Positions 4,416 to 29,206 of a stretch of DNA of 64,000 nt are shown piece after piece. Position 1 is the first letter of the stretch. Each line of letters opens with the position of its first letter. Source of the stretch: Allorhodopirellula heiligendammensis (GTDB lineage: Bacteria > Planctomycetota > Planctomycetia > Pirellulales > Pirellulaceae). The translations under genes were made by a program, and so were the position numbers. A model generated the notes under the pieces. It was not told the origin of the DNA. It saw only the letters and a program-made list of their open reading frames with translations, and searched no databases. The stretch spans positions 2,501,700 to 2,565,699 of the forward strand of contig NZ_SJPU01000001.1 of the NCBI RefSeq assembly GCF_007860105.1. The letters run 5' to 3'.

Positions 4416-4817
4416 TTACGACCGGTCCGGTTTTGACGGTGGGTCAGACCGCAATTCAGCCCACAAAACACGTTGCTTTTTCCAGTCCATTTCCATCGTC
4501 AGCGGTCGCAGAAGTTTTTCCGAGATTTGCGGCTTGCCCTTCTTCATCCGAGGCAGGAACAGCAGCTCTTCCTGAATATCGGGAGCAAGCAATGTCAGGC
4601 TGAGGATCTGCGAAACCCGAGGCTGCGACACATGACCGATCTCCGCAATGTGCTGCAGTCCCGTCGCCCGCCCGGATCGCAACAACTCGTCAAACCGAAT
4701 CGCCAACGCCATCAGCCGCGTGATTCGCGGCAGCGTGCCCGGAACAGCTTCCTTCTCGTCGACGATTTTGTGACGACGCGATGTCGTCACCGCGATCGTC
4801 TTGCGAACCGTAATCAT
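4416..4817 (-). CDS. Small helix-turn-helix protein paired with a serine recombinase
   Basis: About 133 residues, starting MITVRKTIAV at ATG 4817, which overlaps the recombinase stop (ATGA). The middle carries a helix-turn-helix-like segment, GLQHIAEIGHVSQPRVSQIL, followed by LTLLAPDIQEELLFLP. Small proteins of this kind are commonly encoded immediately after large serine recombinases in genomic islands, and the 4-base overlap implies translational coupling. A role as a DNA-binding accessory factor is inferred. The gene looks intact although its partner is truncated. Confidence 0.7.
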   Translation of the reverse strand: MITVRKTIAVTTSRRHKIVDEKEAVPGTLPRITRLMALAIRFDELLRSGRATGLQHIAEIGHVSQPRVSQILSLTLLAPDIQEELLFLPRMKKGKPQISEKLLRPLTMEMDWKKQRVLWAELRSDPPSKPDRS

Positions 4818-5395
4818 GCTACCGACTCCTCGCACTCTTCAACGAGCGCGTTGATCGCCGTCGGGTGGTACGAGATCGCCATTGAACCGGCATCGGGATC
4901 GTGGACAACTCTCGCGACGAGCAGCTCGACAAGGTGAACCCGTTCTTTCGCCGTCAGCGAAGCCCAAACCACTTTGAAGTCCGACATCGCAATGTCGATG
5001 TCGAGCCGCGAAAGTTGGCGGGCGGCAACTTGTTTCAATTTTTCCGTCGCGACAACAACATCGGCTTCCGCCTTTGCAATCCGGGATTTCAAGTCCTCGA
5101 CTCGGATATCGTTCAGGTTCTCGAACACTTCGTGCTTCAGTATTCGTTGAACCTCCTCGGTGTCCCGGTTGACTTGAGCTTTTAACTGAGCCAGGAGCGT
5201 TTCAACTTCGGCTTGCTCTTTATCAAGCAATGCCTTCGATCCTTGGAACACCGCGTCACGCAAGCCTTGGTCATCAACAACCACTCGGAGTTCATCGACG
5301 ACCGCGGCTTCGATCATTGCGGCTGAGACCGACCCCATCTCACAAGCATCGGCCCCACTCTTCACCGTCGTTTGGCAAGCGTAATAGCATTGTAA
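4814..5395 (-). pseudogene. C-terminal remnant of a large serine recombinase
   Basis: Only the end of the protein remains: a zinc-ribbon-like piece (CYYACQTTVKSGADACEM), the long coiled coil (LDKEQAEVETLLAQLKAQVN...) and the terminal SLTAKERVHLVELLVARVVHDP...ISYHPTAINAL, all typical of large serine integrases. The catalytic N-terminal domain with the nucleophilic serine and most of the recombinase domain are absent. Upstream, the frame runs into the cysteine desulfurase sequence at about 5385-5395. It cannot be catalytic. It was probably the mobility gene of this island. Confidence 0.85.
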
Positions 5396-6332
5396 GCAGA
5401 CCTTCACCATCGGCACCAAGAAATGCGATGTTGCTGATGTGTGGCAATCTGCTCTCTCGATTACCATTTACCGAGACGCCTTTCAATGATTCAAGGAGCA
5501 TAGTCTCAAATCGATCTCGAAGACCCGAGATGTGCTCACTCCATGCTCGACGGTTCTGTGACGCCAAGCGACATGCCTCACCAAGTCCAACGATGCAGGG
5601 TACATTCAGCGTGCCAGGCCGGATTCCCTTTTCCTGGCCACCGCCGTACAGTCGCGGATCAATTGATTTTGCCTTTCCCAAGTCGCGAATATACAACGCC
5701 CCCGCTCCCTTGGGGCCATAAAACTTGTGCGCGGAAAGGGTCAGCAATGAGACGTGAACCGCTTCAACATCAATCGCCACTTTTCCTGCTGCCTGAGCTG
5801 CATCACAGTGGACCGGAATGCCTAGTTCACCGCAGATGGATGCAATCTCTGCGACCGGGTGTATCGTGCCGATTTCGTTGTTGCCCCACATTATTGAAAC
5901 GAGCGCGGTATCGTCACGAATCGAATTTCTCAACTCGTCGAGGTCAATGTTTCCAAACTCATCAACATTCAAATAGGTGACCTGCCATCCTTCGCTTTCA
6001 AGATGGCGACATGGCTCGAGAACCGCGGAGTGCTCGGTAGCCTGAGTAATGATGTGGCGTTTGCCTGGCGGCTGCTTAGATGCCAAGCCAAGGATTGCCA
6101 AATTATTTGCCTCAGTTGCCCCGCTGGTCCAAACAATTTCGTTGGGAATACAGTTAATCAAAGTGGCAACTGCTTCACGGGCTTGCCTAATCGCTCGCTG
6201 CACAACGCCACCTACGGCCTCGTGCGGCGTCCCTGGATTTCCAAAGTTCTCGGTGAAAAAGGGAAGCATGGCTGCAAGCACGCTTGAGTCCAGCCGAGTC
6301 GTGGAACAGTTGTCTAGGTATATTGGTTGCAC
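5340..6332 (-). pseudogene. dndA: DndA/IscS-type cysteine desulfurase, 3'-truncated
   Basis: Fold-type I PLP enzyme: MQPIYLDNCSTTRLD start, FTENFGNPGTPHE, WTSGATEANNLAI, ATEHSAVLEP, GNNEIGTIHPV, HCDAAQAAGKV and the PLP lysine in SAHKFYGPKGAGALY. The family is about 380-400 residues. Here recognisable sequence stops after ADGEGLL (near residue 312) and the frame then reads the neighbouring recombinase in another frame, so the mobile loop with the catalytic cysteine is lost. The DndA assignment rests partly on the divergent neighbour; a general IscS/NifS homologue is the alternative. Confidence 0.75.
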
Positions 6333-20398: not shown

Positions 20399-22657
20399 CT
20401 ATCTTCTCTTTCGTTGTTGGAGCTCTTTGAAACTGACGCGTTCTCGCAGGATTGCGGCTTGGTTATCGGTGCCGAACAACAGCGATCCTTGCATCGACGC
20501 GGCGACGGCAGTGCCTACTAGGCAGTCGAGCCAGTGGTTGTCGGGTTGCTCGGGGCGGGCTTTCCATTCGTCGACGGTTCGGCCGCGGCCTTCGGTTTTG
20601 ATGAAGTACTCGGCGGTGATTTGCTCGGCGAACATTCGGTGTTGCTCGGCGCGATCGCCGAAGACGGACAGGCAGCCTCGGTCGCCCATGGCGACGGCGA
20701 GTCGGGCGTGTGTGAAGGACTTCCACCAGTTTGTGTCGTAGATGACGTGGCGGATCGCTCGCTTTCCGTGGACCGAGGGGACTCGCCAGTTGAGGCCGAT
20801 GCGATCGCCGGGTCGGCGTTTGTATTCGCTGAAGGGACTGGACGACGCGCCGACAAAGCGACCGTGGGACGGAAGTAGGATCGAGGCGTGAGGGCTTTGT
20901 CGGCAGAATTGGTAGACGACGTTGGTGGAGTGGCCCCAGTTGGCGTCGATGAGGCAGCGTTCTATCTTCATTGCCGCGCCGTCGTCACGCTGCCATTCTC
21001 GGCCGAGTAGATCGGCGGTCAGAGCTTCCATCCCGGCGTAAAGCGAGCCTTCGAGGCCGGTGCCTTCGGTCGCGAGGGTGTGACGCGCGTCGCGGAGCGT
21101 GAAGTACGGGCGCTTTTGGTCGGGGAATGAACCGTAGTCGACGATGTAGCCGGTGAAGTCGTCGTCCCACGCGGCGACGACATAGAAAAGCAGTTTTCCT
21201 TGGACGTCGATGAACGCGGTGAGGTGATTGGCGGCGATGGGGACGCAGCACCGCTCCATTCCGTTGGACTTTTCCGCGACTTGCTCGGCGGTGAGTTGGT
21301 CGGCGTCGACGGTTTCGGCTGGCAACGGTTCGTTTTGGTACTCGGCGAAGAACGCGGCTTCGTCTTGAAGCTTCAAATTCATCGCGTGTTGGATCGCGGA
21401 TAGCTCGTCGTGGTTGAAACGCTCTTTCCACGCGACGTCGGCACCTTCGTCCATCGCTGCCTTGTTCTTGCGATAGAACTCGGTGCCGGCCGCTCCGCCA
21501 TCGCCGGCACGCAAACCTTCGCTGCGAATCTCGGCATAGCGTTCCCACAAGGTTTCGTTGGTGGGGAACGAGTTGACCATTCGCGTTCGCGAGCCATTCC
21601 ACTCAGGGTGCTTGTCGCGGTCGAGAATGTTGTCGGCCATGTCGCCGGGGCGAATGACCGTGCAGGGCATAATGCCGGAGATCTTATTTCCTGGGCCGGC
21701 GAGCCCGAGCACCGCGCCGGCGAGGATTGCTTCGCGGTTGGCACACTGCGATAGCGAGCGAGCGGACTCGTCGGTTTGCGGATCGTCGAGAACAACTAGG
21801 GACGGCCGAACGGTCTTGCCGTCGGGGCGTTTGAACTTCATGCCGCGGATTCGGCCAGTGAGGCCAGCGACTTTGATGATCGCGCCGCTGGCTTTGCTGC
21901 CTTCGATACTGGGCAGGACTACTTCTTTCGCGGTCCAACCAATTTGCGTGCGTTTTCCTTGGTGCAGTTGTCCGTTGGCTCGGTTGGCGATTCCGTCGAG
22001 GGCTTGGATGGGAAAGCAGACCTCGGGGTAGTCGGCCAAGAGTAGATCGTTGCCGTCTAGTTCGGTCTTAATGGATTCGAGCATGTCGCAGGCGTGACCT
22101 TCGTCGCTGCCGATCAAGCATACGAAGTCGCGATAGCCGTTGAGGACCGCCCAAATGCATGCGACTTCGGCCAGCGAACTCTTGCCGCTGCCTCGGGCCA
22201 TTGCGAGCGAGAACAAACCGCCTCGAACGACGGCTTCTTCGATCTTGTTGATGACCGCGATGTGATCCGGCGACCACGAGAGATGGAACGTCAGCGAGAA
22301 GTAGGCTTCGCAGAAGTATCGGAAACTGTCGGCGGCTTTTGCTTTCCGATCGGGGTCGGAGATCGGTGGAAGCTCGCCGATGTCGCGGCCGGCGAGTGAC
22401 TTCGCTGCGTTTCGTTCGCGCGAGTAGTCCTTGTGCTTTTCGTAGGCATCGGTGTCGTCGGCTTTCGGTCGGTGGCGGTCTTCGATCAGCAGGCCGGCGA
22501 ACTTCAAAAGGTGAACGCTTTTGCCGTCACCGATGCGATGACCTGCTCGCGTTCGATAGCGGTGGAGTTGTCGTTCGTTGATGACTTCGCCGAGCGGCGT
22601 GCTGTTGAGTAGCCGGCAACACTCGCTCGGTCGTAGTTTCGCTGGGTCAAGTTGCAC
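20399..22657 (-). CDS. Terminase large subunit
   Basis: About 752 residues from GTG at 22657 (VQLDPAKLRPSECCRLL), which overlaps the upstream gene; the longer frame to 22738 reads through that gene. The ATPase domain has Walker A ARGSGKSS at residues 154-161 and Walker B SLVVLDDPQTD, and a C-terminal nuclease-type region with Asp residues (TAFIDVQGKLLFYVVAAWDDD, YIVDYGSF, CLIDANWGHS). The layout resembles the phage terminase gpA/large-subunit group. It drives DNA packaging and headful or site-specific cutting. It looks intact. Confidence 0.9.
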   Translation of the reverse strand: MQLDPAKLRPSECCRLLNSTPLGEVINERQLHRYRTRAGHRIGDGKSVHLLKFAGLLIEDRHRPKADDTDAYEKHKDYSRERNAAKSLAGRDIGELPPISDPDRKAKAADSFRYFCEAYFSLTFHLSWSPDHIAVINKIEEAVVRGGLFSLAMARGSGKSSLAEVACIWAVLNGYRDFVCLIGSDEGHACDMLESIKTELDGNDLLLADYPEVCFPIQALDGIANRANGQLHQGKRTQIGWTAKEVVLPSIEGSKASGAIIKVAGLTGRIRGMKFKRPDGKTVRPSLVVLDDPQTDESARSLSQCANREAILAGAVLGLAGPGNKISGIMPCTVIRPGDMADNILDRDKHPEWNGSRTRMVNSFPTNETLWERYAEIRSEGLRAGDGGAAGTEFYRKNKAAMDEGADVAWKERFNHDELSAIQHAMNLKLQDEAAFFAEYQNEPLPAETVDADQLTAEQVAEKSNGMERCCVPIAANHLTAFIDVQGKLLFYVVAAWDDDFTGYIVDYGSFPDQKRPYFTLRDARHTLATEGTGLEGSLYAGMEALTADLLGREWQRDDGAAMKIERCLIDANWGHSTNVVYQFCRQSPHASILLPSHGRFVGASSSPFSEYKRRPGDRIGLNWRVPSVHGKRAIRHVIYDTNWWKSFTHARLAVAMGDRGCLSVFGDRAEQHRMFAEQITAEYFIKTEGRGRTVDEWKARPEQPDNHWLDCLVGTAVAASMQGSLLFGTDNQAAILRERVSFKELQQRKRR

Positions 22658-22853
22658 GTCGGGTCTCCTGGAGTAGCCACGCGACGTAGGCGACCACGTT
22701 GAGCGTTCCGTCGGCGTTGGTCGGTGCGCCAGCGGCAACGTCGGCCTCGATTTGCTCGGGCGTGATTCGCGTTTGGTAGGCGTTACTGATCGCGGTCGCG
22801 GCGTCTTTGATCGGCAGCGAGTTAATCGTCACTGCTTTGCGTTTGTCTTCCAT
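22647..22853 (-). CDS. Small phage protein upstream of terminase
   Basis: 68 residues: VTINSLPIKDAATAISNAYQTRITPEQIEADVAAGAPTN, ADGTLNVVAYVAWLLQE. Its end overlaps the terminase GTG start (11 bases), implying coupling. The pattern 'AYxTxIxxExxEADxxAGAPxNxDGTxNxxxYxAWL' resembles small phage proteins located at the small-terminase position, so a DNA-recognition role is possible but not shown. It is the first gene of the late minus-strand operon. Confidence 0.65.
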   Translation of the reverse strand: MEDKRKAVTINSLPIKDAATAISNAYQTRITPEQIEADVAAGAPTNADGTLNVVAYVAWLLQETRRAT

Positions 22854-23020
22854 GACTGCTCTTGATTGGAGGGCTTCGCGACACGCCGCACACGTTGGCG
22901 ACTGTCGCGAATGTTTGCATGTTTGGCGTGGTTAGCCGCATGTTTTTGGACGCCACGTTGGCCCAAAACTGGCCGCGTGTTGGCGTCCAAGAAAACATGC
23001 GAAATCATTCAAAACGTTGG
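22854..23020. promoter_or_regulatory. Divergent control region with nested inverted repeats
   Basis: This region between the late operon (leftward) and the early array (rightward) has a perfect 9-bp inverted repeat TTCGCGACA (22875-22883) / TGTCGCGAA (22903-22911), an AAACATGCAAA box in reverse orientation at 22914-22924, and a larger imperfect inverted repeat with ~18-20-bp arms at 22938-22955 and 22981-23000 (arms begin GCATGTTTT and end with TTGGACGCCA). The dyads have the spacing of an operator region for a phage regulator; an origin of replication is another possibility. Confidence 0.6.
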
Positions 23021-23063
23021 GCAGACTTCGCTTGATGTGTTCCGAAACCCATGGCTCATGTGT
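22938..23063 (+). promoter_or_regulatory. Leader module copy 1 (upstream of the amidoligase gene)
   Basis: It consists of the inverted repeat at 22938-23000, an ATGCGAA box at 22997, and the conserved block GCAGACTTCGCTTGATGTGT (23021-23040) to CCCATGGCTCATGTGT (ends 23063). CTTG lies 34 bp after the ATGC of the box. The ATG of the first gene is 65 bp beyond the end of the block, preceded by CGGAGACCCAACC. Confidence 0.75.
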
Positions 23064-23127
23064 CACACGCGGCCGGCAAAACGCCACGCGAAACACAACT
23101 ACCTAGCCACCCTTCGGAGACCCAACC

Positions 23128-23985
23128 ATGCACGCCAACGACATCGCCTTCGGTATCGAAATCGAAACCCACCTGCCCGGAAACGACACCACGCCGATCG
23201 GCGGATACCACAACGGCTTGCCAGTAGCTTGGCTGCCCGAAGGCTGGAAAGCAGAACGCGATAGCAGCATCCGCACACCGATCGGACGCAAGAATGCCGA
23301 GTTCGTATCGCCTATCCTTCGCGGCTACGACGGACTTCAAACCGTAGAGCGAGCGGTCGACGCGATCAAAGCACGCGGGGCTCGCGTTAACGAAAGCCGC
23401 GGCCTTCACATTACGATTACCTGGAACGGCGACGCGGCCGCCTTGGCTCGGCTGATAAGCCTGATCGGAAACCACGAGCGAGCCATCTACGCTTCGACGG
23501 GAACCAAGCGACGCGAACGCAACACTTGGGCGAAGCAAATCAAGAGCTACGGCAACAAAGACGCAGCCAAGCGAAACTGCGAAGCCGACCGCTACCACCT
23601 TTTGAACTTGACACACCTTGCTCGCGGCCGAAACCGGATCGAGATTCGAGCCTTCGCCGGCACGCTCAACAAAACCAAACTGCTCGGCTACATCCAAATG
23701 GTACTGGGCTTGGCCGAGCTGGCCTTGACCACGCGACGCTGCAGCGGATGGGACTACACCAAGCGGCCTGGCACCAAGAGCTGCTGGGACCGCAACGGCG
23801 CGGGCGAAGGCGAAACGGAACTGAACCGCTTGTACTATCGCCTTGGCTGGACCATCGGCTGGCGTAAAGGAGCCCTTCGCACCAAACGATACGGCGAGCT
23901 TTCGGCCGGCGAACAAACCTGCGATTGGAAACCGGTCAAGAAGAAGCTTTTGCAAATGGCTCGCAAGTACGACCAAGCGGTTTAA
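23128..23985 (+). CDS. Amidoligase-type protein (COOH-NH2 ligase family)
   Basis: 285 residues. FGIEIETHLPG at the N-terminus, LPEGWKAERDSSIRTPIG, AEFVSPILRGYDG, GARVNESRGLHITITW, then DRYHLLNLTHLARGRNRIEIRAFAGTLN. These fit the putative amidoligase enzyme family (GIEIE, E-D-S-S, EfvSPil, GLHiHi, EfRxFxGT), an ATP-dependent group thought to form amide bonds between amino acids or peptides and proteins. The substrate is unknown. It is the first gene behind leader copy 1 and stands alone before a terminator. RBS CGGAGA. Confidence 0.75.
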   Translation: MHANDIAFGIEIETHLPGNDTTPIGGYHNGLPVAWLPEGWKAERDSSIRTPIGRKNAEFVSPILRGYDGLQTVERAVDAIKARGARVNESRGLHITITWNGDAAALARLISLIGNHERAIYASTGTKRRERNTWAKQIKSYGNKDAAKRNCEADRYHLLNLTHLARGRNRIEIRAFAGTLNKTKLLGYIQMVLGLAELALTTRRCSGWDYTKRPGTKSCWDRNGAGEGETELNRLYYRLGWTIGWRKGALRTKRYGELSAGEQTCDWKPVKKKLLQMARKYDQAV

Positions 23986-24012
23986 ACGGCCGGCCAACAT
24001 CTTTCCTTCAAC

Positions 24013-24041
24013 GCCGCGACCCTCACCGCGGCTTTTCTTTT
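24013..24041 (+). terminator. Rho-independent terminator after the amidoligase gene
   Basis: Stem GCCGCG (24013-24018) / CGCGGC (24027-24032), 8-base loop, followed by TTTTCTTTT. It is 28 bases after the gene's stop codon and ends unit 1. Confidence 0.75.
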
Positions 24042-24148
24042 GCGCGTTGGTTTCCTTCCGAACCGTTTGCTTCAAAACGTTGGCGTTTTCTGGCGCACGT
24101 GTCGCGTCGTTCGCATAAGTAACCCTAAGGGGCCGAGTGTTTCGCGGA

Positions 24149-24261
24149 CGCCGACACGAGGCCTTTGTGGGGCACGTCGGCGAGATCGAGAAACATGCAA
24201 AAAGACTGCAAATTGCAGGGCGAATGCGCTTGCTGTGTCTCGAATACCATGGCTCATGTGT
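24149..24261 (+). promoter_or_regulatory. Leader module copy 2
   Basis: Inverted repeat CGCCGAC (24149-24155) / GTCGGCG (24176-24182) enclosing ACGAGGCC, then ATGCAAA (24195), then CTTGCTGTGT (from 24229) to ACCATGGCTCATGTGT (ends 24261). The ATGC box to CTTG distance is 34 bp, as in copy 1. The first gene starts 45 bp after the block. Confidence 0.75.
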
Positions 24262-24306
24262 GTCATCGCAAGACGAATTTCCCTTCCTACCTACGGAGAC
24301 CCAACG

Positions 24307-24582
24307 ATGACGATCGACGCCCTGATCGAACTGCTGAGCGAGTACCGCGAACAACACGGGCCGGACGCCGAAGTGCGTTTGATGACGCAAGAGAACTGGC
24401 CCTTTGAAAACCGAATCGCCGGCATCACCAGCGGCTCGGAGATGAACGAGGCCAGCGAGGAAGACCCCAGCGAATACTTCGACAACCAAGACGTAGCGGA
24501 AGACGCGATCGTCTACATCGTCGAAGGCGGGCAGATTTGCTACGGCAGCAAGCGAGCCTGGGAAACCTGCCGCGATTGCTAG
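24307..24582 (+). CDS. Small acidic hypothetical protein
   Basis: 91 residues: MTIDALIELLSEYREQHGPDAEVRLMTQ, then acidic loop (EMNEASEEDPSEYFDNQDVAED) and AIVYIVEGGQICYGSKRAWE. The 'LIELLSEYREQHGPDAEVRLMTQ.NWP' beginning is common in small planctomycete proteins of unknown function. The ATG follows CGGAGACCCAACG. First gene of unit 2. Confidence 0.6.
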   Translation: MTIDALIELLSEYREQHGPDAEVRLMTQENWPFENRIAGITSGSEMNEASEEDPSEYFDNQDVAEDAIVYIVEGGQICYGSKRAWETCRDC

Positions 24583-24614
24583 CCGCGGGCCTTTGTCAGC
24601 AGGGCCTTTCCAAC

Positions 24615-24650
24615 GCGGGCTTCGCTCGAAGCCCGCTTCCTTTCCTTTTT
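24615..24650 (+). terminator. Rho-independent terminator or attenuator in unit 2
   Basis: Perfect stem GCGGGCTTCG (24615-24624) / CGAAGCCCGC (24627-24636) with a 2-base loop, then TTCCTTTCCTTTTT. It sits between the two genes of the unit, 20 bases before the next ATG, so expression of that gene would need readthrough or another promoter. Confidence 0.75.
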
Positions 24651-24669
24651 CAAACCGAGAGACACAACC

Positions 24670-24879
24670 ATGGCCAACGCCAAACTCGAACACGCCTATA
24701 CCGCCGCGCACATTCAAGCTCTCACGCTGCTGGAAGACCTGCACGAATCGGTCGAAGACTTGCCGGCACCAGGTAGCGAAACCGCGCCGTTGAATTGGGA
24801 GCACGTCGGTTCCTTGCAGCATCTTTGCGAACAGCTCCGCGAATTGAAGGAACATTTCGGTAAAAACTTTCGAGCCTGA
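24670..24879 (+). CDS. Small hypothetical protein
   Basis: 69 residues, helical: MANAKLEHAYTAAHIQALTLLEDL, VEDLPAPGSETAPLNWEHVGSLQHLCEQLRELKEHFG. No family is recognised. RBS ACCGAGAGA upstream. It lies downstream of a terminator-like hairpin and before leader copy 3. Confidence 0.5.
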   Translation: MANAKLEHAYTAAHIQALTLLEDLHESVEDLPAPGSETAPLNWEHVGSLQHLCEQLRELKEHFGKNFRA

Positions 24880-24901
24880 ATTCGCCACACGTTCGGGAGT
24901 T

Positions 24902-24987
24902 ATGCGAGTTCTGGAAAAACGTTTGAAAACATTTCCAGAACTCGCCGAGATTCGCTTGATGTGTTTTGAAAACCATGGCTCATGTGT
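24902..24987 (+). promoter_or_regulatory. Leader module copy 3, with a 14-bp perfect inverted repeat
   Basis: Arms GCGAGTTCTGGAAA (24904-24917) and TTTCCAGAACTCGC (24932-24945) overlap an ATGCGAG box at 24902. The block CTTGATGTGT (24955) to ACCATGGCTCATGTGT (ends 24987) follows. The box-CTTG distance is 53 bp, one to two helical turns longer than in the other copies. The next gene begins 51 bp after the block. Confidence 0.75.
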
Positions 24988-25038
24988 CTTAACGCCCAAC
25001 GGCAAAACGTAACCAACCTTTCCACCGGAGAACAAACC

Positions 25039-25293
25039 ATGGCCATGAACGAAACCCAAAAGGCCCGCGCCGAAGCCCTTGCCCCGCTCTTCCGAAACAT
25101 GGACGCGCATACCGCCCAGGAGATTCGCGAGAGCTACTACCGCATCGCCGAAAACCTTCGGCCCTTGGTAAACGCCCTTGAGATTGCCGACCTCGACCAC
25201 GGCGGACCGGCCGGCCCGCTGCTCGAAGAACACTACATCTTTTGCGAGCTGCTGGAAAAGCTCGACAAGAGCGTTTTGGGGGCGGTCCTGTAA
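25039..25293 (+). CDS. Small hypothetical protein
   Basis: 84 residues: MNETQKARAEALAPLFRNMDAHTAQEIRESYYRIAENLRPLV, helical, ending LLEEHYIFCELLEKLDKSVLGAVL. No recognised family. RBS CCGGAGAACAAACC before ATG 25039. First gene of unit 3. Confidence 0.5.
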   Translation: MAMNETQKARAEALAPLFRNMDAHTAQEIRESYYRIAENLRPLVNALEIADLDHGGPAGPLLEEHYIFCELLEKLDKSVLGAVL

Positions 25294-25398
25294 ACCGAAG
25301 CCGAAACGCCAGCACGGAGGCTTGGCGTAGCGGCGGGTGGTACCCGTCGCCTGACGATGGCAGCCAACCACGAACCTTTCCCTTTCGGAGAACGAACG

Positions 25399-25914
25399 AT
25401 GAAGAAGGCAGACGTAAAAGTAGGCGGCGAGTATTACGCCAACGTGACCAACAAGAAGGTCGTCGTACGAATCGACTCGACCAACACGGCTGGCGGCTGG
25501 AACGCCACGAACCTTACCACCAACAAGAAGGTGCGGATCAAGACGGCTCAGCGGTTGCAAGGCAAAGCACGAGCGACGACGTCGGCCAGTGCGGCCGGCG
25601 AAACGCGAGCCCGCAAACGAGTCGCGAAGAAGACGAACGACGGCGACGCGGCGAGTGCGGCGGCGACGGCAGGCGACAAGAAGCTCTCGTGTATTGAGGC
25701 GGCTTTGAAAGTCCTTGGCGAAACCGAGGAAACGATGAACGCCCAGGAAATGATCGCCGCGATGACGGACGCCGGCTATTGGACGAGCCCCGGAGGCAAG
25801 ACGCCTCACGCGACTTTGTACTCGGCGATTCTTCGCGAGCTTGCTAAGGGCGACGACAGCCGTTTTATCAAAGTCGAACGCGGTCGCTTCGCCGCGCGAG
25901 CGCAAGGGAATTGA
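25399..25914 (+). CDS. HARE-HTH domain protein
   Basis: 171 residues from ATG 25399 (RBS CGGAGAACGAACG). The N-terminal 50 residues form a small beta domain (VKVGGEYYANVTNKKVVVRIDS), followed by an Ala/Thr/Lys-rich linker and a C-terminal HARE-HTH winged helix: LSCIEAALKVLGETEETMN, AQEMIAAMTDAGYWTSPGGK, TLYSAILREL, FIKVERGRFA. HARE-HTH domains occur in nucleic acid-associated proteins, including restriction enzymes. A regulator or DNA-binding role is inferred. It could act on the repeated leaders around it, but nothing in the sequence shows that. Confidence 0.7.
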   Translation: MKKADVKVGGEYYANVTNKKVVVRIDSTNTAGGWNATNLTTNKKVRIKTAQRLQGKARATTSASAAGETRARKRVAKKTNDGDAASAAATAGDKKLSCIEAALKVLGETEETMNAQEMIAAMTDAGYWTSPGGKTPHATLYSAILRELAKGDDSRFIKVERGRFAARAQGN

Positions 25915-25917
25915 GCC

Positions 25918-26151
25918 ATGAAGCACTTTTACGACCTGCGGACCGTCGAGGACTTGGAAGACGGTGAAACTGCGACGCCGGAGCCCGACGTGAGATACGA
26001 ACTGCGGTCGATCCGCAACGAGATGATTGACGCCGGGCCGGTGCGTGACGTCATACGACGCGGCGACGCCCTGTACGCCAGAACGAACGATGGCGAATCC
26101 TTTCCGGTGACGGGTCCGGACTCGCACGTTCTGGTACCGATCGGCTTGTAG
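25918..26151 (+). CDS. Small hypothetical protein
   Basis: 77 residues: MKHFYDLRTVEDLEDGETATPEPDVRYELRSIRNEMIDAG, then VIRRGDALYARTNDGESFPVTGPDSHVLVPIGL. No family recognised. ATG 25918 lies 3 bases beyond the preceding stop. Third gene of unit 3. Confidence 0.55.
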   Translation: MKHFYDLRTVEDLEDGETATPEPDVRYELRSIRNEMIDAGPVRDVIRRGDALYARTNDGESFPVTGPDSHVLVPIGL

Positions 26152-26188
26152 CCGGCCGGATGATCCCTCTCGGCGAAGCTTCGCCGAC

Positions 26189-26220
26189 AACGCCCGACGT
26201 TTGCAACGTGCGGGCGTTTT
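26189..26220 (+). terminator. Rho-independent terminator ending unit 3
   Basis: Stem-loop ACGCCCG...ACGTT / AACGT...CGGGCGT (26190-26217, one bulge) followed by TTTT. A separate perfect palindrome TCGGCGAAGCTTCGCCGA lies just before it (26169-26187). Confidence 0.65.
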
Positions 26221-26257
26221 GTCGTGACGGGAAACACAACGCCGACCTTCCCAACGA

Positions 26258-26369
26258 CGCGACACGAGGCCACGTCGCGGCATATTAGGCGTGCCAAAAA
26301 AGTATGCGAATTCTGACGCGTGTTTCGCAGACTTCGCTTGATGTGTTTGGAAAGTCATGGCTCATGTGT
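26258..26369 (+). promoter_or_regulatory. Leader module copy 4
   Basis: Inverted repeat CGCGAC (26258-26263) / GTCGCG (26274-26279) enclosing ACGAGGCC as in copy 2, then ATGCGAA (26304), then GCAGACTTCGCTTGATGTGT (26327) to GTCATGGCTCATGTGT (ends 26369). The box-CTTG distance is 33 bp. The next gene begins 40 bp after the block. Confidence 0.75.
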
Positions 26370-26409
26370 GGTTGTACGAACGGTTTTCAAACACGAACGG
26401 AGAAACGAA

Positions 26410-26643
26410 ATGGCAAAGATTGAAACGCTCGCCGCGCGGCCGGTCGAACCGGCAGCGGCTTACGACAACGCTCACCAAATTTCACGCGACCTGCTGCAAC
26501 ACATCGAGTTGCAACTCGACCGAATGATTCGGCCGGACAACAAGGCCTTGCGATGGACGCACGTGCGAGCGTTGAACTTGGTCAACGCTCAGCTTTCGGA
26601 AGTCGCCGCGCTGGTCGACGAAACCAACAACGCTCGCAACTAG
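26410..26643 (+). CDS. Small hypothetical protein
   Basis: 77 residues: MAKIETLAARPVEPAAAYDNAHQISRDLLQHIELQLDRM, then WTHVRALNLVNAQLSEVAALVDETNNARN; helical. RBS CGGAGAAACGAA. First gene of unit 4. The downstream gene follows after 11 bases. Confidence 0.55.
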   Translation: MAKIETLAARPVEPAAAYDNAHQISRDLLQHIELQLDRMIRPDNKALRWTHVRALNLVNAQLSEVAALVDETNNARN

Positions 26644-26654
26644 GAATCAAAACG

Positions 26655-26870
26655 ATGAGAACAAACCTCAAGGCGGGCGACCGCGTGCGGCTGCTTTCGA
26701 TGACCGACGACCCCGATCCGATTCCCGCCGGCACCACCGGAACGGTGGCCGGCGTCTATCCGCTAAGCGATTGGACGCAAGTCGATGTCGACTGGGACAA
26801 CGGCCGGTCGCTGATGCTTTCCATTCCCCCGGACGTCGTCGAGCGACTGCCGGCCGACAAAACGAACTAA
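26655..26870 (+). CDS. DUF4314-like small protein
   Basis: 71 residues: NLKAGDRVRLLSMTDDPDPIPAGTTGTV, WTQVDVDWDNGRSLMLSIPPD. This is the short SH3-like DUF4314 pattern (GDRVRL..M..DP.PI..GT.GTV...D....V.WDNG), found in phage and plasmid proteins. The function is unknown. ATG 26655 is 11 bases after the previous gene, in an operon. Confidence 0.75.
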   Translation: MRTNLKAGDRVRLLSMTDDPDPIPAGTTGTVAGVYPLSDWTQVDVDWDNGRSLMLSIPPDVVERLPADKTN

Positions 26871-26882
26871 GGAGCAACCACC

Positions 26883-27203
26883 ATGTCCACACGAGCGACG
26901 ATCGCCGTCCGCCGCGCCGACCGAACGTATGCAGCGGTCTACCTTCACTACGACGGTTACCCAGAACACACCGGAGCACTTTTGATGGCCAACTACCAAA
27001 CGACTGAAGAAGCGGAAACCTTGATCGACGGCGGCGACATCCGCTGCTTGGACGCCGAGTTGGGCGAGGCCGAGCGTTTTGCCGACGGTGACCCACCAGC
27101 GGTTCTGCCAACACACGATTCGCTGCTGGACTTTGCAAGGAACTGCGGTGCTCGTTTCGTCTATGTCTTTGACGACGGAGCTTGGTCCTACAAGGAACTC
27201 TAG
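26883..27203 (+). CDS. Small hypothetical protein
   Basis: 106 residues: MSTRATIAVRRADRTYAAVYLHYDGYPEH, then GALLMANYQTTEEAETLIDGGDIRCLDAE, ending with a helical FARNCGARFVYVFDDGAWSYKEL. The 'RATIAVR...A.YLHYDGYPEHTG..L' pattern recurs in phage proteins of unknown function. Last gene of unit 4; it converges with the minus-strand operon at 27261. Confidence 0.65.
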   Translation: MSTRATIAVRRADRTYAAVYLHYDGYPEHTGALLMANYQTTEEAETLIDGGDIRCLDAELGEAERFADGDPPAVLPTHDSLLDFARNCGARFVYVFDDGAWSYKEL

Positions 27204-27260
27204 ACACAAAGATTCTCCTTTCCTCATTTCTGTGAATATTTGTCGCACGTCACCCGTTGA

Positions 27261-27548
27261 CTATGAGGATGCCGAGAACGCGTGGTCGGCGTGAGCCTCC
27301 AGTCGCACGACCGTTTCGCAGTTCTGTCCGTGCCGGCCGATCACCTCGACGGTGCAATGAGCCGGCAGGGTCGTTCGCAACTCCTTTGCGATATCCTCTT
27401 GGCACATCGCTTTCCCGCGAACGAGATCAGCCATCTCCTCGATATCCTCTACCCGGACGAAGCGATCGGTGGTGACTCGTAGCGTGTAGTAATCCCAGAC
27501 GCTGTTGATGGGACAGCGTCCGTGGATCGTCGTTTCGTGTGTATTCAT
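27261..27548 (-). CDS. Hypothetical protein
   Basis: 95 residues: NTHETTIHGRCPINSVWDYYTLRVTTDRFVRVEDIEEMADLVRGK, then a polar end. The ATG overlaps the stop of the upstream TGT-like gene (ATGA), so it is coupled to it. The family is not recognised; the phrase 'IHGRCP.N..WDYY' recalls small phage proteins. Confidence 0.55.
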   Translation of the reverse strand: MNTHETTIHGRCPINSVWDYYTLRVTTDRFVRVEDIEEMADLVRGKAMCQEDIAKELRTTLPAHCTVEVIGRHGQNCETVVRLEAHADHAFSASS

Positions 27549-28303
27549 TCAGCTTCCAGTTCAAAAAAAGTTTGAGTTTCAGTAACGGGGGTCCAGACGC
27601 TCGGCGAGCGAGTGGCTTCAATTCTCGATGCGATAACCTCGCGCCGTTGCGCCTGCGTTGGCGGCTTGTACATGCCGAAGCGAACAAGCAGTTGGCTGTT
27701 TTGAGCAACGTTGGTGCTGTCGGCAGAATGAAATGGATAGCGAGCTACGATTGCTGAATCCAACATGCGTAGTCCGTGCAGCCTTGCTTTTGGCCTTCCA
27801 TGCTCATCGCACAGAACACCCATCGCGTCAGACATGCGGCGGTTCCAACGTTCGGTTTTCGGCTTGGCGTATTCTCCGCTGCTTCCTAGAGCGATGACGG
27901 TCCAATCGTCGACAAGCCTTGCAAGTCGCCGGAGCGATTCATTCAGGTGCCAAACGGGAACTCCAAAACGCCCCACTGCTGAACAACCGAATTCTTCAAT
28001 GAGCCGATCGTTCTCCTCTTCAGTACCGTCGATGACATCCGGTATGAACGCGAAGTCGAAACGCGGATTGCGACACCACGCTTCTACCCATGCGTAGTAG
28101 GGCGACCAGTCAGCGATTGGTTTTCCGGTTTTCCACGCTGAAAAAGCACCATTGTCAAGACAAAAACCAGTGCTGGCCTCAGCGACGATTGGCAAGTCCT
28201 CCTCGCGGCCAAAAGGCACCAAGAAATGCCGGTTGCCCGTAGCGATAAAGCGTGCAACCGAGTCGCGAGTTCCGCCCAAGGGGGTACCGTGATAGTGTCG
28301 CAT
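27545..28303 (-). CDS. TIM-barrel protein resembling tRNA-guanine transglycosylases (DpdA-type?)
   Basis: 252 residues: MRHYHGTPLGGTRDSVARFIATGNRHF, STGFCLDNGAFSAWKTGKPIADW, YAWVEAWCRNPRFDFAFIPDVIDGTEEEN, VPVWHLNESLRRL, ALGSSGEYAKP, LHGLRM, SADSTNVAQN. The alternating strand-helix pattern with Asp at FIPDVIDG and the SADST motif resemble phage proteins I associate with DpdA/TGT-type enzymes, which put 7-deazaguanine into DNA. No TGT zinc motif is visible and the protein is short, so this is tentative. It lies in an operon with a DNA methylase. Confidence 0.45.
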   Translation of the reverse strand: MRHYHGTPLGGTRDSVARFIATGNRHFLVPFGREEDLPIVAEASTGFCLDNGAFSAWKTGKPIADWSPYYAWVEAWCRNPRFDFAFIPDVIDGTEEENDRLIEEFGCSAVGRFGVPVWHLNESLRRLARLVDDWTVIALGSSGEYAKPKTERWNRRMSDAMGVLCDEHGRPKARLHGLRMLDSAIVARYPFHSADSTNVAQNSQLLVRFGMYKPPTQAQRREVIASRIEATRSPSVWTPVTETQTFFELEAE

Positions 28304-28310
28304 TGGCTGG

Positions 28311-29050
28311 TTACCGCATCTTCTCCTCTCGCGGTTTCATCGCGATCGGTGATTCGCCGGTACGTTCCAACACTGCCGGTTTGCCGGTGAAGCGTTGGTA
28401 GCGGTCGACGATCACGTCGCAGTACGGCGGATCGAGCTCCATCAAGAACGCCTTGCGTCCGGTTTGCTCGGCCGCGATCAATGTCGATCCGCTGCCGCCG
28501 AACAGGTCCAGCACGTTCTCGCCCTTGCGGCTTGAGTACTGCATCGCTGTCACGGCGAGTTCCGCCGGCTTGCCGGTGAGATGCTCCAACTGTTGTGGCG
28601 GAATCTTCTTGACATGCCAAAGGTCGGTGGCGTTGTTCGGCCCAAAGAACTTGTGGCCGGCTCCTTCACGCCAACCATAGAACGCCCACTCATGTCCCGA
28701 CATAAAATCTTTTCGATTGATGACCGGGTGCATCTTGTCCCAGATGATGGTCTGCGAAAGATACAGCCCGCTGGCCGCCAGTGCCGGCGGATAGCAGCCG
28801 ATGTTGGAGAACCCGCCCCAGATGTAGAAGCAGCGACCCGGTTGCAACACGCGGCCGATGTGGCCGAACCAGGCGGCGAGCAATCTCTTGAACTCATCGT
28901 CACTGACTTTGTCGTTGGCGAGCACGCGATCCTTGGCACGCATCTTCTTGCTGCCCGCTTTCGTCTTGCCTTCACCAGCCGGGAACGAACTATTGCCGGC
29001 CGCGATTGCGTTCTTGCTTCGAGGTTCCACATTGACGTTGTACGGCGGGT
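28311..29050 (-). pseudogene. DNA methylase (N4/N6 type), 5'-truncated at the prophage end
   Basis: Motif IV DPPYNV lies at the start of the surviving frame; the C-terminal half has the AdoMet motif DLFGGSGSTLIAAEQTGRKAFLMELDPPYCDVIVDRYQR. The middle FYIWGGFSNIGCYPPAL, WDKMHPVINRKDFMSGHEWAFYGW fits phage DNA methylases. The residues before TDPPY (frame to 29138) do not look like a methylase and overlap a sigma factor fragment, so the N-terminal segment (about 40 residues or more) is missing. Catalytic motifs remain, but translation start and folding are doubtful. Confidence 0.75.
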
Positions 29051-29206
29051 CGGTATCCGCTGGCGCACTCCGCGCGTGGTGAACTTCTGCTGAGGGTCGG
29101 TCGCACACCAGACGCGATCGAATCCCTTGAAAAGGCACTTGCGTTGACCGAACAGGTGTCCGAGAAACGTTTTCTCGTAAAGAAACTCAAAGAATTGCGG
29201 GCGTGA
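29051..29206 (+). pseudogene. C-terminal fragment of an ECF42-type sigma factor
   Basis: In plus frame: RYPLAHSARGELLLRVGRTP, then [20 protein letters not shown], then [10 protein letters not shown] and a stop. This is the TPR-like C-terminal extension (DUF6596-type: 'LL.RLGR..EA...Y.RAL.L......R.FL..RL..L') of ECF42 sigma factors. The rest has been replaced by prophage DNA at about 29047-29051. The following YCII-type genes are the usual neighbours of ECF42 factors. Confidence 0.7.

Follow-up and report, generated by a model that had tools for sequence, protein, structure and literature searches.

We describe a short DNA module that occurs four times in a prophage of the planctomycete Allorhodopirellula heiligendammensis, within a stretch of 64,000 nt (the window; GCF_007860105.1, NZ_SJPU01000001.1, positions 2,501,700-2,565,699 of the forward strand). 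It is a real expression module, linked to phages and found across the order. Judged by its layout it is likely a promoter, and we lean towards a phage-encoded HARE-HTH protein, whose gene lies in the third of the four gene units that the module precedes, as the factor that reads it. New here is this candidate reader, which co-occurs with the module. In the full reading, the module holds a promoter core at which the HARE-HTH protein would activate the host RNA polymerase and control its own gene, and a sister clade of the protein would use a sister core; we give this combination an even chance of being right.

Four copies of the module in the window

The skeleton of the module is 33 bp long and has the form CTTG[A/C]TGTGT-N9-CATGGCTCATGTGT. 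It starts at 23031, 24229, 24955 and 26337, always on the + strand, which bears out the four copies and the places given for them in a preliminary description of this DNA. The pattern CTTGATGTGT-N9-CATGGCTCATGTGT has four matches in the window (the one at 24229 with one mismatch) and none in 100 shuffles. With their flanks, the copies are:

22991..23071, + strand: module copy 1, type A, with A/T tracts, the 33-mer at 23031-23063, and downstream sequence to +41
24189..24269, + strand: module copy 2, type A, CTTGC variant, 33-mer at 24229-24261
24915..24995, + strand: module copy 3, type A, 33-mer at 24955-24987
26297..26377, + strand: module copy 4, type A, 33-mer at 26337-26369

The preliminary description had given the block a 12-nt spacer and a uniform CTTGA start. 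The N12 pattern has no match at up to 3 mismatches, the true spacer being 8 nt before CCATGG (9 before CATGG), and copy 2 starts with CTTGC instead. In the other copies, a likeness to copy 1 of 71 nt (69-72% identity) extends 38 nt 5' of the CTTG. The block had been placed 40-65 bp before the first ATG of each unit, and we measure 64, 45, 51 and 40 nt from its end to the start codons (starts at 23128, 24307, 25039 and 26410); the ribosome-binding site CGGAGA, said to be common to the units, is present 5' of all four. Terminators had been proposed for the ends of units 1 and 3 and inside unit 2. Terminator-like sites lie at 24013-24032 (unit 1 end) and 24615-24636 (within unit 2), none is listed at the end of unit 3, and the count for the region, 9 on both strands, is near that of shuffles (7.4 +/- 3.0). 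The statement that these are not normal sigma-70 promoters agrees with our scan of 22600-27300, which finds 0 sigma-70-like sites (0.8 in shuffles).

The module is linked to phages across the order

The host genome itself (7.18 Mb) has exactly these 4 copies at up to 3 mismatches, all inside the prophage, so the scatter through host DNA outside phage that would mark a dispersed repeat is absent. A search of planctomycete genomes and phages, as the preliminary description had proposed, finds related copies in viral contigs and in genomes of the family. With up to 2 mismatches allowed, 60 of the 241 family genomes carry the module; they belong to 26 of 68 genera, and within a genus its distribution is patchy. 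A backwards control pattern matched 3 of the 241, once each. In a sample of the order the module is found in 24 of 196 genomes, including 8 of 161 outside the family. A scan with the exact core returned 25 viral-contig stretches and 21 species-genome stretches, the latter all planctomycete-titled, and 23 viral records picked for having the module hold as many as 11 matches each when 3 mismatches are allowed (11 in record G250). The phage collection gave no DNA match, and this module is not described in any of the titles and abstracts listed by searches of open-access papers.

A position matrix covering -40 to +41, with which sites scored above 14 (at most -24 in one shuffle per locus, about 1 Mb), identifies 171 distinct sites in the collected loci. 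A same-strand gene is called downstream of 156, and the distance from the last T of the module to the gene start has a median of 45 nt (5-95%: 36-63); 10 of the other 15 sites are so close to the locus end that a gene would be cut. Genes were called by a codon-usage caller trained on 16 open reading frames of the window, and calls of the longest reading frame, which give antisense artefacts in this GC-rich DNA, were not used. That the module is a dispersed repeat with no role in expression, as its repetition and mobility might suggest, is already contradicted by this narrow same-strand placement and by a core kept across the order while its flanks differ; we put the chance of it next to nil. 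The narrow distance, the gene direction and the phage or prophage setting of many copies support well the earlier proposal of a phage-specific promoter or operator common to the set of units. They do not extend to its label "early": the cluster sits between the terminase/structural operon and the replication genes.

Anatomy of the type A module

The anatomy was read from 132 copies with full flanks, collected by relaxed matching (up to 6 of 24 positions). Outside the search pattern, conserved positions are G at -1 (128 copies), A15 (113), A16 (117), G19 (101) and G34 (107), followed by a further conserved stretch, TYAWCGC, at 35-41. Upstream, where the preliminary description had seen a conserved ATGCRAA box, the copies instead show A/T tracts at a constant distance from the core, near -38, -28 and -17. 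All three tracts are present in 94 of 170 modules and in 5 of 975 other gene starts, with windows chosen on the same data. TTGMTG (2-7), a 17-bp spacer and CTCATG (25-30) have sigma-70 spacing, and TG at 22-23 is in the extended -10 place. Positions 25-30 do not hold a sigma-70 -10 hexamer, being CTCATG in nearly all 132 copies, and the sigma-54 form GG-N10-GC is not there either: GG lies at 23-24, 35-36 are mostly T and T/C, and the next conserved GC is at 40-41. The core is constant across the order and the flanks vary. A variant with one extra core base is found in L091, L092, L093, L112 and L121, and L019 and L025 each have it as their first module. In L091-L093 it accompanies a single HARE-HTH clade (99/87), yet elsewhere other clades adjoin it.

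On this layout, the block would be the core of a phage promoter of about 80 bp, made of the upstream A/T tracts, a -35-like CTTGMTG and a 17-bp spacer with an extended -10 TG. The near-invariant core CATGGCTCATGTGTG would occupy the normal place of the -10 element, and transcription is predicted to start immediately 3' of it. Two other ideas about the core were rejected. The CATG-GCT-CATG dyad would suggest an N4-type promoter hairpin, and it is broken in variants with no compensation. A conserved mini-ORF (open reading frame), ATG GCT CAT GTG, would be expected to vary synonymously; no synonymous variation is seen in the core, which is therefore read as constrained at the nucleotide level.

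The inverted repeat that had been described before each block is not conserved in sequence. Its pairing does exceed re-paired controls, the re-pairing test peaking (z 5.5) for -45..-28 against -26..-1, in these upstream repeats. Pairing is also what could make the module a 5' leader RNA element instead of a promoter: the variable N9 pairs with the stretch after the core better than when re-paired between copies (z 3.0, 0/300), and the sister modules of type B, described below, have a hairpin directly after the core. We nevertheless hold an RNA element to be very improbable, since the folding energy of the type A core is near that of shuffles (mean z -0.1 to -0.5), the strongest column-pair signals show no enrichment of standard pairs, A/T tracts in fixed register with the core suit DNA, and the only Rfam match at E <=5 is a weak one to a microRNA, on the repeat that precedes copy 3.

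A HARE-HTH protein co-occurs with the module

The preliminary description had missed the HARE-HTH gene inside unit 3, together with the sister module type and a ribozyme.

25399..25914, + strand: unit 3 gene 2, HARE-HTH protein (PF05066), 171 aa, candidate module reader

The protein passes PF05066 with 41.1 bits (cut-off 25.9); the domain is C-terminal, at residues 98-167, and position 137, the residue by which we define groups below, stands at the start of its predicted recognition helix (136-148). The clade B HARE-HTH protein of L110 reaches 55.8 bits. In the phage collection the sole protein match is in Virus Rctr197k (KX853510, 134270-134431), with residues 1-54 only (52% identity, E 4e-8). 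HARE-HTH is the commonest family across 63 record groups, being present in 52, with the runner-up in 39. Of the 11 other groups, ten consist of loci truncated 3' of the module, and the eleventh, L066, turned out to have it. In several small elements (for example L060, L064 and L067) the module stands immediately before the HARE-HTH gene.

Counted with profile A1 at E <=1e-10, HARE-HTH is present in 62 of the 241 family genomes, where 51 genomes have module and protein, 9 the module only, 11 the protein only and 170 neither (odds ratio 88). As a control, the large terminase of the window gives 50/10/24/157 against the module in the same order (odds ratio 33), and among genomes without that terminase the module and HARE-HTH are still associated (6/4/9/148, p 3e-5). 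Outside the family, 22 of the 161 genomes have HARE-HTH, and all 8 genomes with the module are among these (P 3e-8).

Among the module-only genomes, five of nine were looked at (G014, G093, G186 and G193 were left out): in G011, G075 and G100 the contig ends shortly after the module, and the stretches read in G029 and G063 hold no HARE-HTH. Among the protein-only genomes, the module of G006 and G015 carries an additional base (CATGGCTCCATGTGT), G153, G163, G164, G095 and G240 have module B (G240 also an A-like module), and in G105, G192 and G223 the contig begins within or beside the HARE-HTH gene; no module was found in G099.

These associations suggest that a HARE-HTH winged-helix protein, brought by the element, would read the core, so that host RNA polymerase could use these promoters. 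Because the protein is encoded within its own regulon, it would also control itself. The same co-occurrence and autoregulatory placement would be expected if the modules were operators of a HARE-HTH repressor, through which the prophage silences all units together and steadies the level of the repressor. The number of near-identical sites that one element can carry, as many as 11 in G250, also suits a repressor, and the prediction for the protein goes no further than a DNA-binding fold. We think this alternative unlikely, given that such a repressor would find no conserved sigma-70 -10 element to block within the module or next to it, that conservation runs over a long, asymmetric stretch laid out like a promoter, and that the dyad in the core is broken in several variants.

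A sister module goes with a second HARE-HTH clade

Module B, CTGGATG...GAGGTAACTGTGT, consists of CTGGATG, 13 or 14 variable bases, and the core GAGGTAACTGTGTG. With 13 variable bases it is 33 bp long like module A, and the two have in common CTKGATG, GG at 23-24 and TGTGT at 29-33. It is present in 14 of the 241 genomes (up to 2 mismatches; control 0), 10 of which also have HARE-HTH; type B loci were mostly reached via HARE matches, and 10/14 is the independent count. Module B precedes a HARE-HTH gene of the second clade, a neighbouring large serine recombinase, or both, and recombinase domains were confirmed in 3 of 3 neighbours tested.

We divided 78 distinct HARE domains by residue 137 into 19 with D/E/Q and 59 with H/W, after dropping two matches with no helix context and repeated domains; since the groups are defined by that residue, their separation by that column holds by construction. 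Module B is in the locus for 16 of the 19 D/E/Q domains and none of the 59 H/W domains (p 6e-14, which ignores relatedness), and two of the three D/E/Q loci lacking it, L111 and L116, are short ends of contigs. Recombinases were flagged in the loci of 14 of the 19 and 0 of the 59, respectively. The recombinase protein cluster is also found in four phage records with HARE-H (G248, G251, G254 and G258), where no module B was flagged. All 19 D/E/Q domains form a single tree branch (100/97; the alignment is short and many forks are unresolved), and the switch of core and protein therefore counts as one event. This sister clade, beside large serine recombinases, would read the sister core as the window protein would read core A. 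In three loci (L013, L098 and L121) HARE-D/E is preceded by module A or the one-base variant of it, and the recombinase by module B; L112 has the A variant only.

An inverted repeat lies directly 3' of the type B core. Its sequence varies by locus and its complementarity is kept (L097, L098, L100, L109, L110, L117, L122, L123 and others), with folding below shuffles (mean z -1.8; 8 of 17 below -2). The repeat may form a hairpin with which the transcript begins, or it may be an operator.

A hammerhead ribozyme before the HARE-HTH gene

25299..25369, + strand: hammerhead type II ribozyme (RF02276), between unit 3 gene 1 and the HARE-HTH gene

The ribozyme scores 37.6 bits (cut-off 37) and ends about 30 nt before the HARE-HTH gene. 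A ribozyme also stands before this gene in all of 14 loci searched and in 8 of another 13; with the window this makes 23 of 28 sources, many of which are related. Of the five sources without a ribozyme, four (L013, L052, L053 and L060) have a module directly 5' of the HARE-HTH gene; the fifth is L033. PMC3088659 places type II hammerheads near prophage genes and proposes a role in the processing of long phage transcripts. The ribozymes here are alike in passing the RF02276 threshold and lying between phage genes, and differ from those in that paper in being linked to one gene, HARE-HTH, across many phages.

Modules, clades and ribozyme could be joined in a broader scheme, which we regard as possible though doubtful. 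HARE-HTH proteins would be phage promoter-specificity factors with exchangeable cores, HARE-H with module A running the main small-gene regulon and HARE-D/E with module B running the recombinase. L013, L098 and L121 would then represent a cascade that times integration or excision, and the ribozyme would cut out the HARE-H message when its gene is not first in the unit.

Points that weigh against a HARE-HTH reader at promoters

Several observations weigh against the reading we prefer. For the protein, fold matches are weak. Its co-occurrence with the module is partly that of two things carried on one element, a scan allowing 2 mismatches shows no type A module in 14 of the 22 HARE-HTH genomes outside the family, and in loci L104 and L108 a module was found and no HARE-HTH. 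The methylase (75%) and the terminase (74%) have a mean identity in the same records as high as that of the HARE domain (68%) or higher, so conservation alone does not single out HARE-HTH. For the A/T tracts, the power observed at 10-11 bp is reached by 491 of 10000 column permutations, and the single period that fits best is 12.5. For the switch from A to B, joint inheritance of a module-regulator-recombinase cassette is also an explanation, and in four loci a gene of the D/E clade has an A-type module nearby.

The last of these points is the presence of sigma-like genes in 6 of 7 long phage records (not the 30-kb one) and in 10 of the 63 record groups. The modules might be promoters for such a phage-encoded factor, with HARE-HTH a bystander or cofactor, and this would account for the -35/-10 layout. 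Two of seven sigma-like proteins tested pass the Sigma70_r2 cut-off, one of them also scoring just below the NCBIfam ECF (extracytoplasmic function) cut-off (42.6 of 42.9), whereas the other five fall below Sigma70_r2. The window prophage lacks the stretch that holds the sigma-like gene in record G248, though the prophage is a remnant (see below). In the same 9 records the sigma-like proteins have a mean identity of 27% (minimum 18%), against 67% for the HARE-HTH domain; they have diverged while the module core hardly varies, which argues against a sigma-like reader. We consider such a reader improbable.

Genes of the units and state of the prophage

Besides the HARE-HTH gene, the four units contain the following genes:

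23128..23985, + strand: unit 1, putative amidoligase (PF12224)
24307..24582, + strand: unit 2 gene 1, small protein with no assigned function, of a family behind 26 collected modules
24670..24879, + strand: unit 2 gene 2, small protein with no assigned function
25039..25293, + strand: unit 3 gene 1, small protein with no assigned function, of a family behind 38 collected modules
25918..26151, + strand: unit 3 gene 3, small protein with no assigned function
26410..26643, + strand: unit 4 gene 1, small protein with no assigned function, of a family behind 26 collected modules
26655..26870, + strand: unit 4 gene 2, DUF4314 protein
26883..27203, + strand: unit 4 gene 3, phage protein family phrog_1987, no assigned function

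Unit 4 is converged upon by genes at 27545-29108 for a queuine tRNA-ribosyltransferase-like phage protein (phrog_887) and an N6/N4 DNA methylase, a family found in 38 of the 63 record groups.

The related record G248 matches the window over 3170-29056. A stretch of it of about 8.4 kb (L071:5470-13911), with a sigma-like gene and genes that read as helicase- and primase-like, is unmatched in the window. At 4814-6332 the window has a C-terminal piece of a large serine recombinase (its zinc ribbon just below the Pfam cut-off), adjoining a class V aminotransferase gene that reads as cysteine desulfurase-like. With 8.4 kb unmatched and the recombinase apparently cut to its C-terminal piece, the prophage is taken to be a remnant; its modules and its HARE-HTH reading frame are intact.

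Significance and comparison with known systems

The module and the HARE-HTH protein offer a testable pair of factor and site across an order, with two natural specificities. The module can serve as a tag for spotting such prophages in genomes and metagenomes, and the pairing gives HARE-HTH proteins a candidate role in phages. Little was found in print, among open-access papers, on transcription control in planctomycete phages.

The preliminary description had pointed to the start-associated sequences of some mycobacteriophages. Those of cluster K phages, the SAS and ESAS, are treated in PMC3203893 and PMC12699233; the SAS has the sequence GGGATAGGAGCCC and lies immediately 5' of gene starts (PMC3203893). 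The general logic is the same, with many near-identical copies at gene starts, mostly in one direction, outside the structural module, and no established reader. The analogy goes no further than that: our module differs in sequence, ends 40-64 nt before the starts (collected median about 45), and is linked to a specific protein family.

Sigma-70 promoters with UP-like A tracts resemble the module in the TTGMTG at the -35 place, the 17-bp spacer, the extended -10 TG and the upstream A/T; they differ in that the module has about 14 nearly invariant bases in place of a TATAAT-like -10.

HARE-HTH proteins include the delta subunit of Firmicutes RNA polymerase, which has an N-terminal HARE domain followed by an acidic tail. 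The module-linked proteins differ from the delta subunit and ASXL1 in being phage-encoded and in having the HARE domain at the C-terminus, after a basic or barrel-like N-terminal part. The family was treated by Aravind and Iyer in 2012 (cited through PMC11037411). The NCBIfam delta model is unmatched by the window protein, and the L110 protein reaches 16.5 of 42 bits.

Multi-copy phage promoters or operators with a dedicated phage factor are known from T7-like promoters, L5 stoperators and phiC31 repeats. As in those systems, one short multi-copy sequence defines one regulon. The module differs from them in that the phage genes run against Pfam, a part of the whole, implicate neither a single-subunit polymerase nor a known repressor family, and in that a sister core pairs with a sister clade of the protein.

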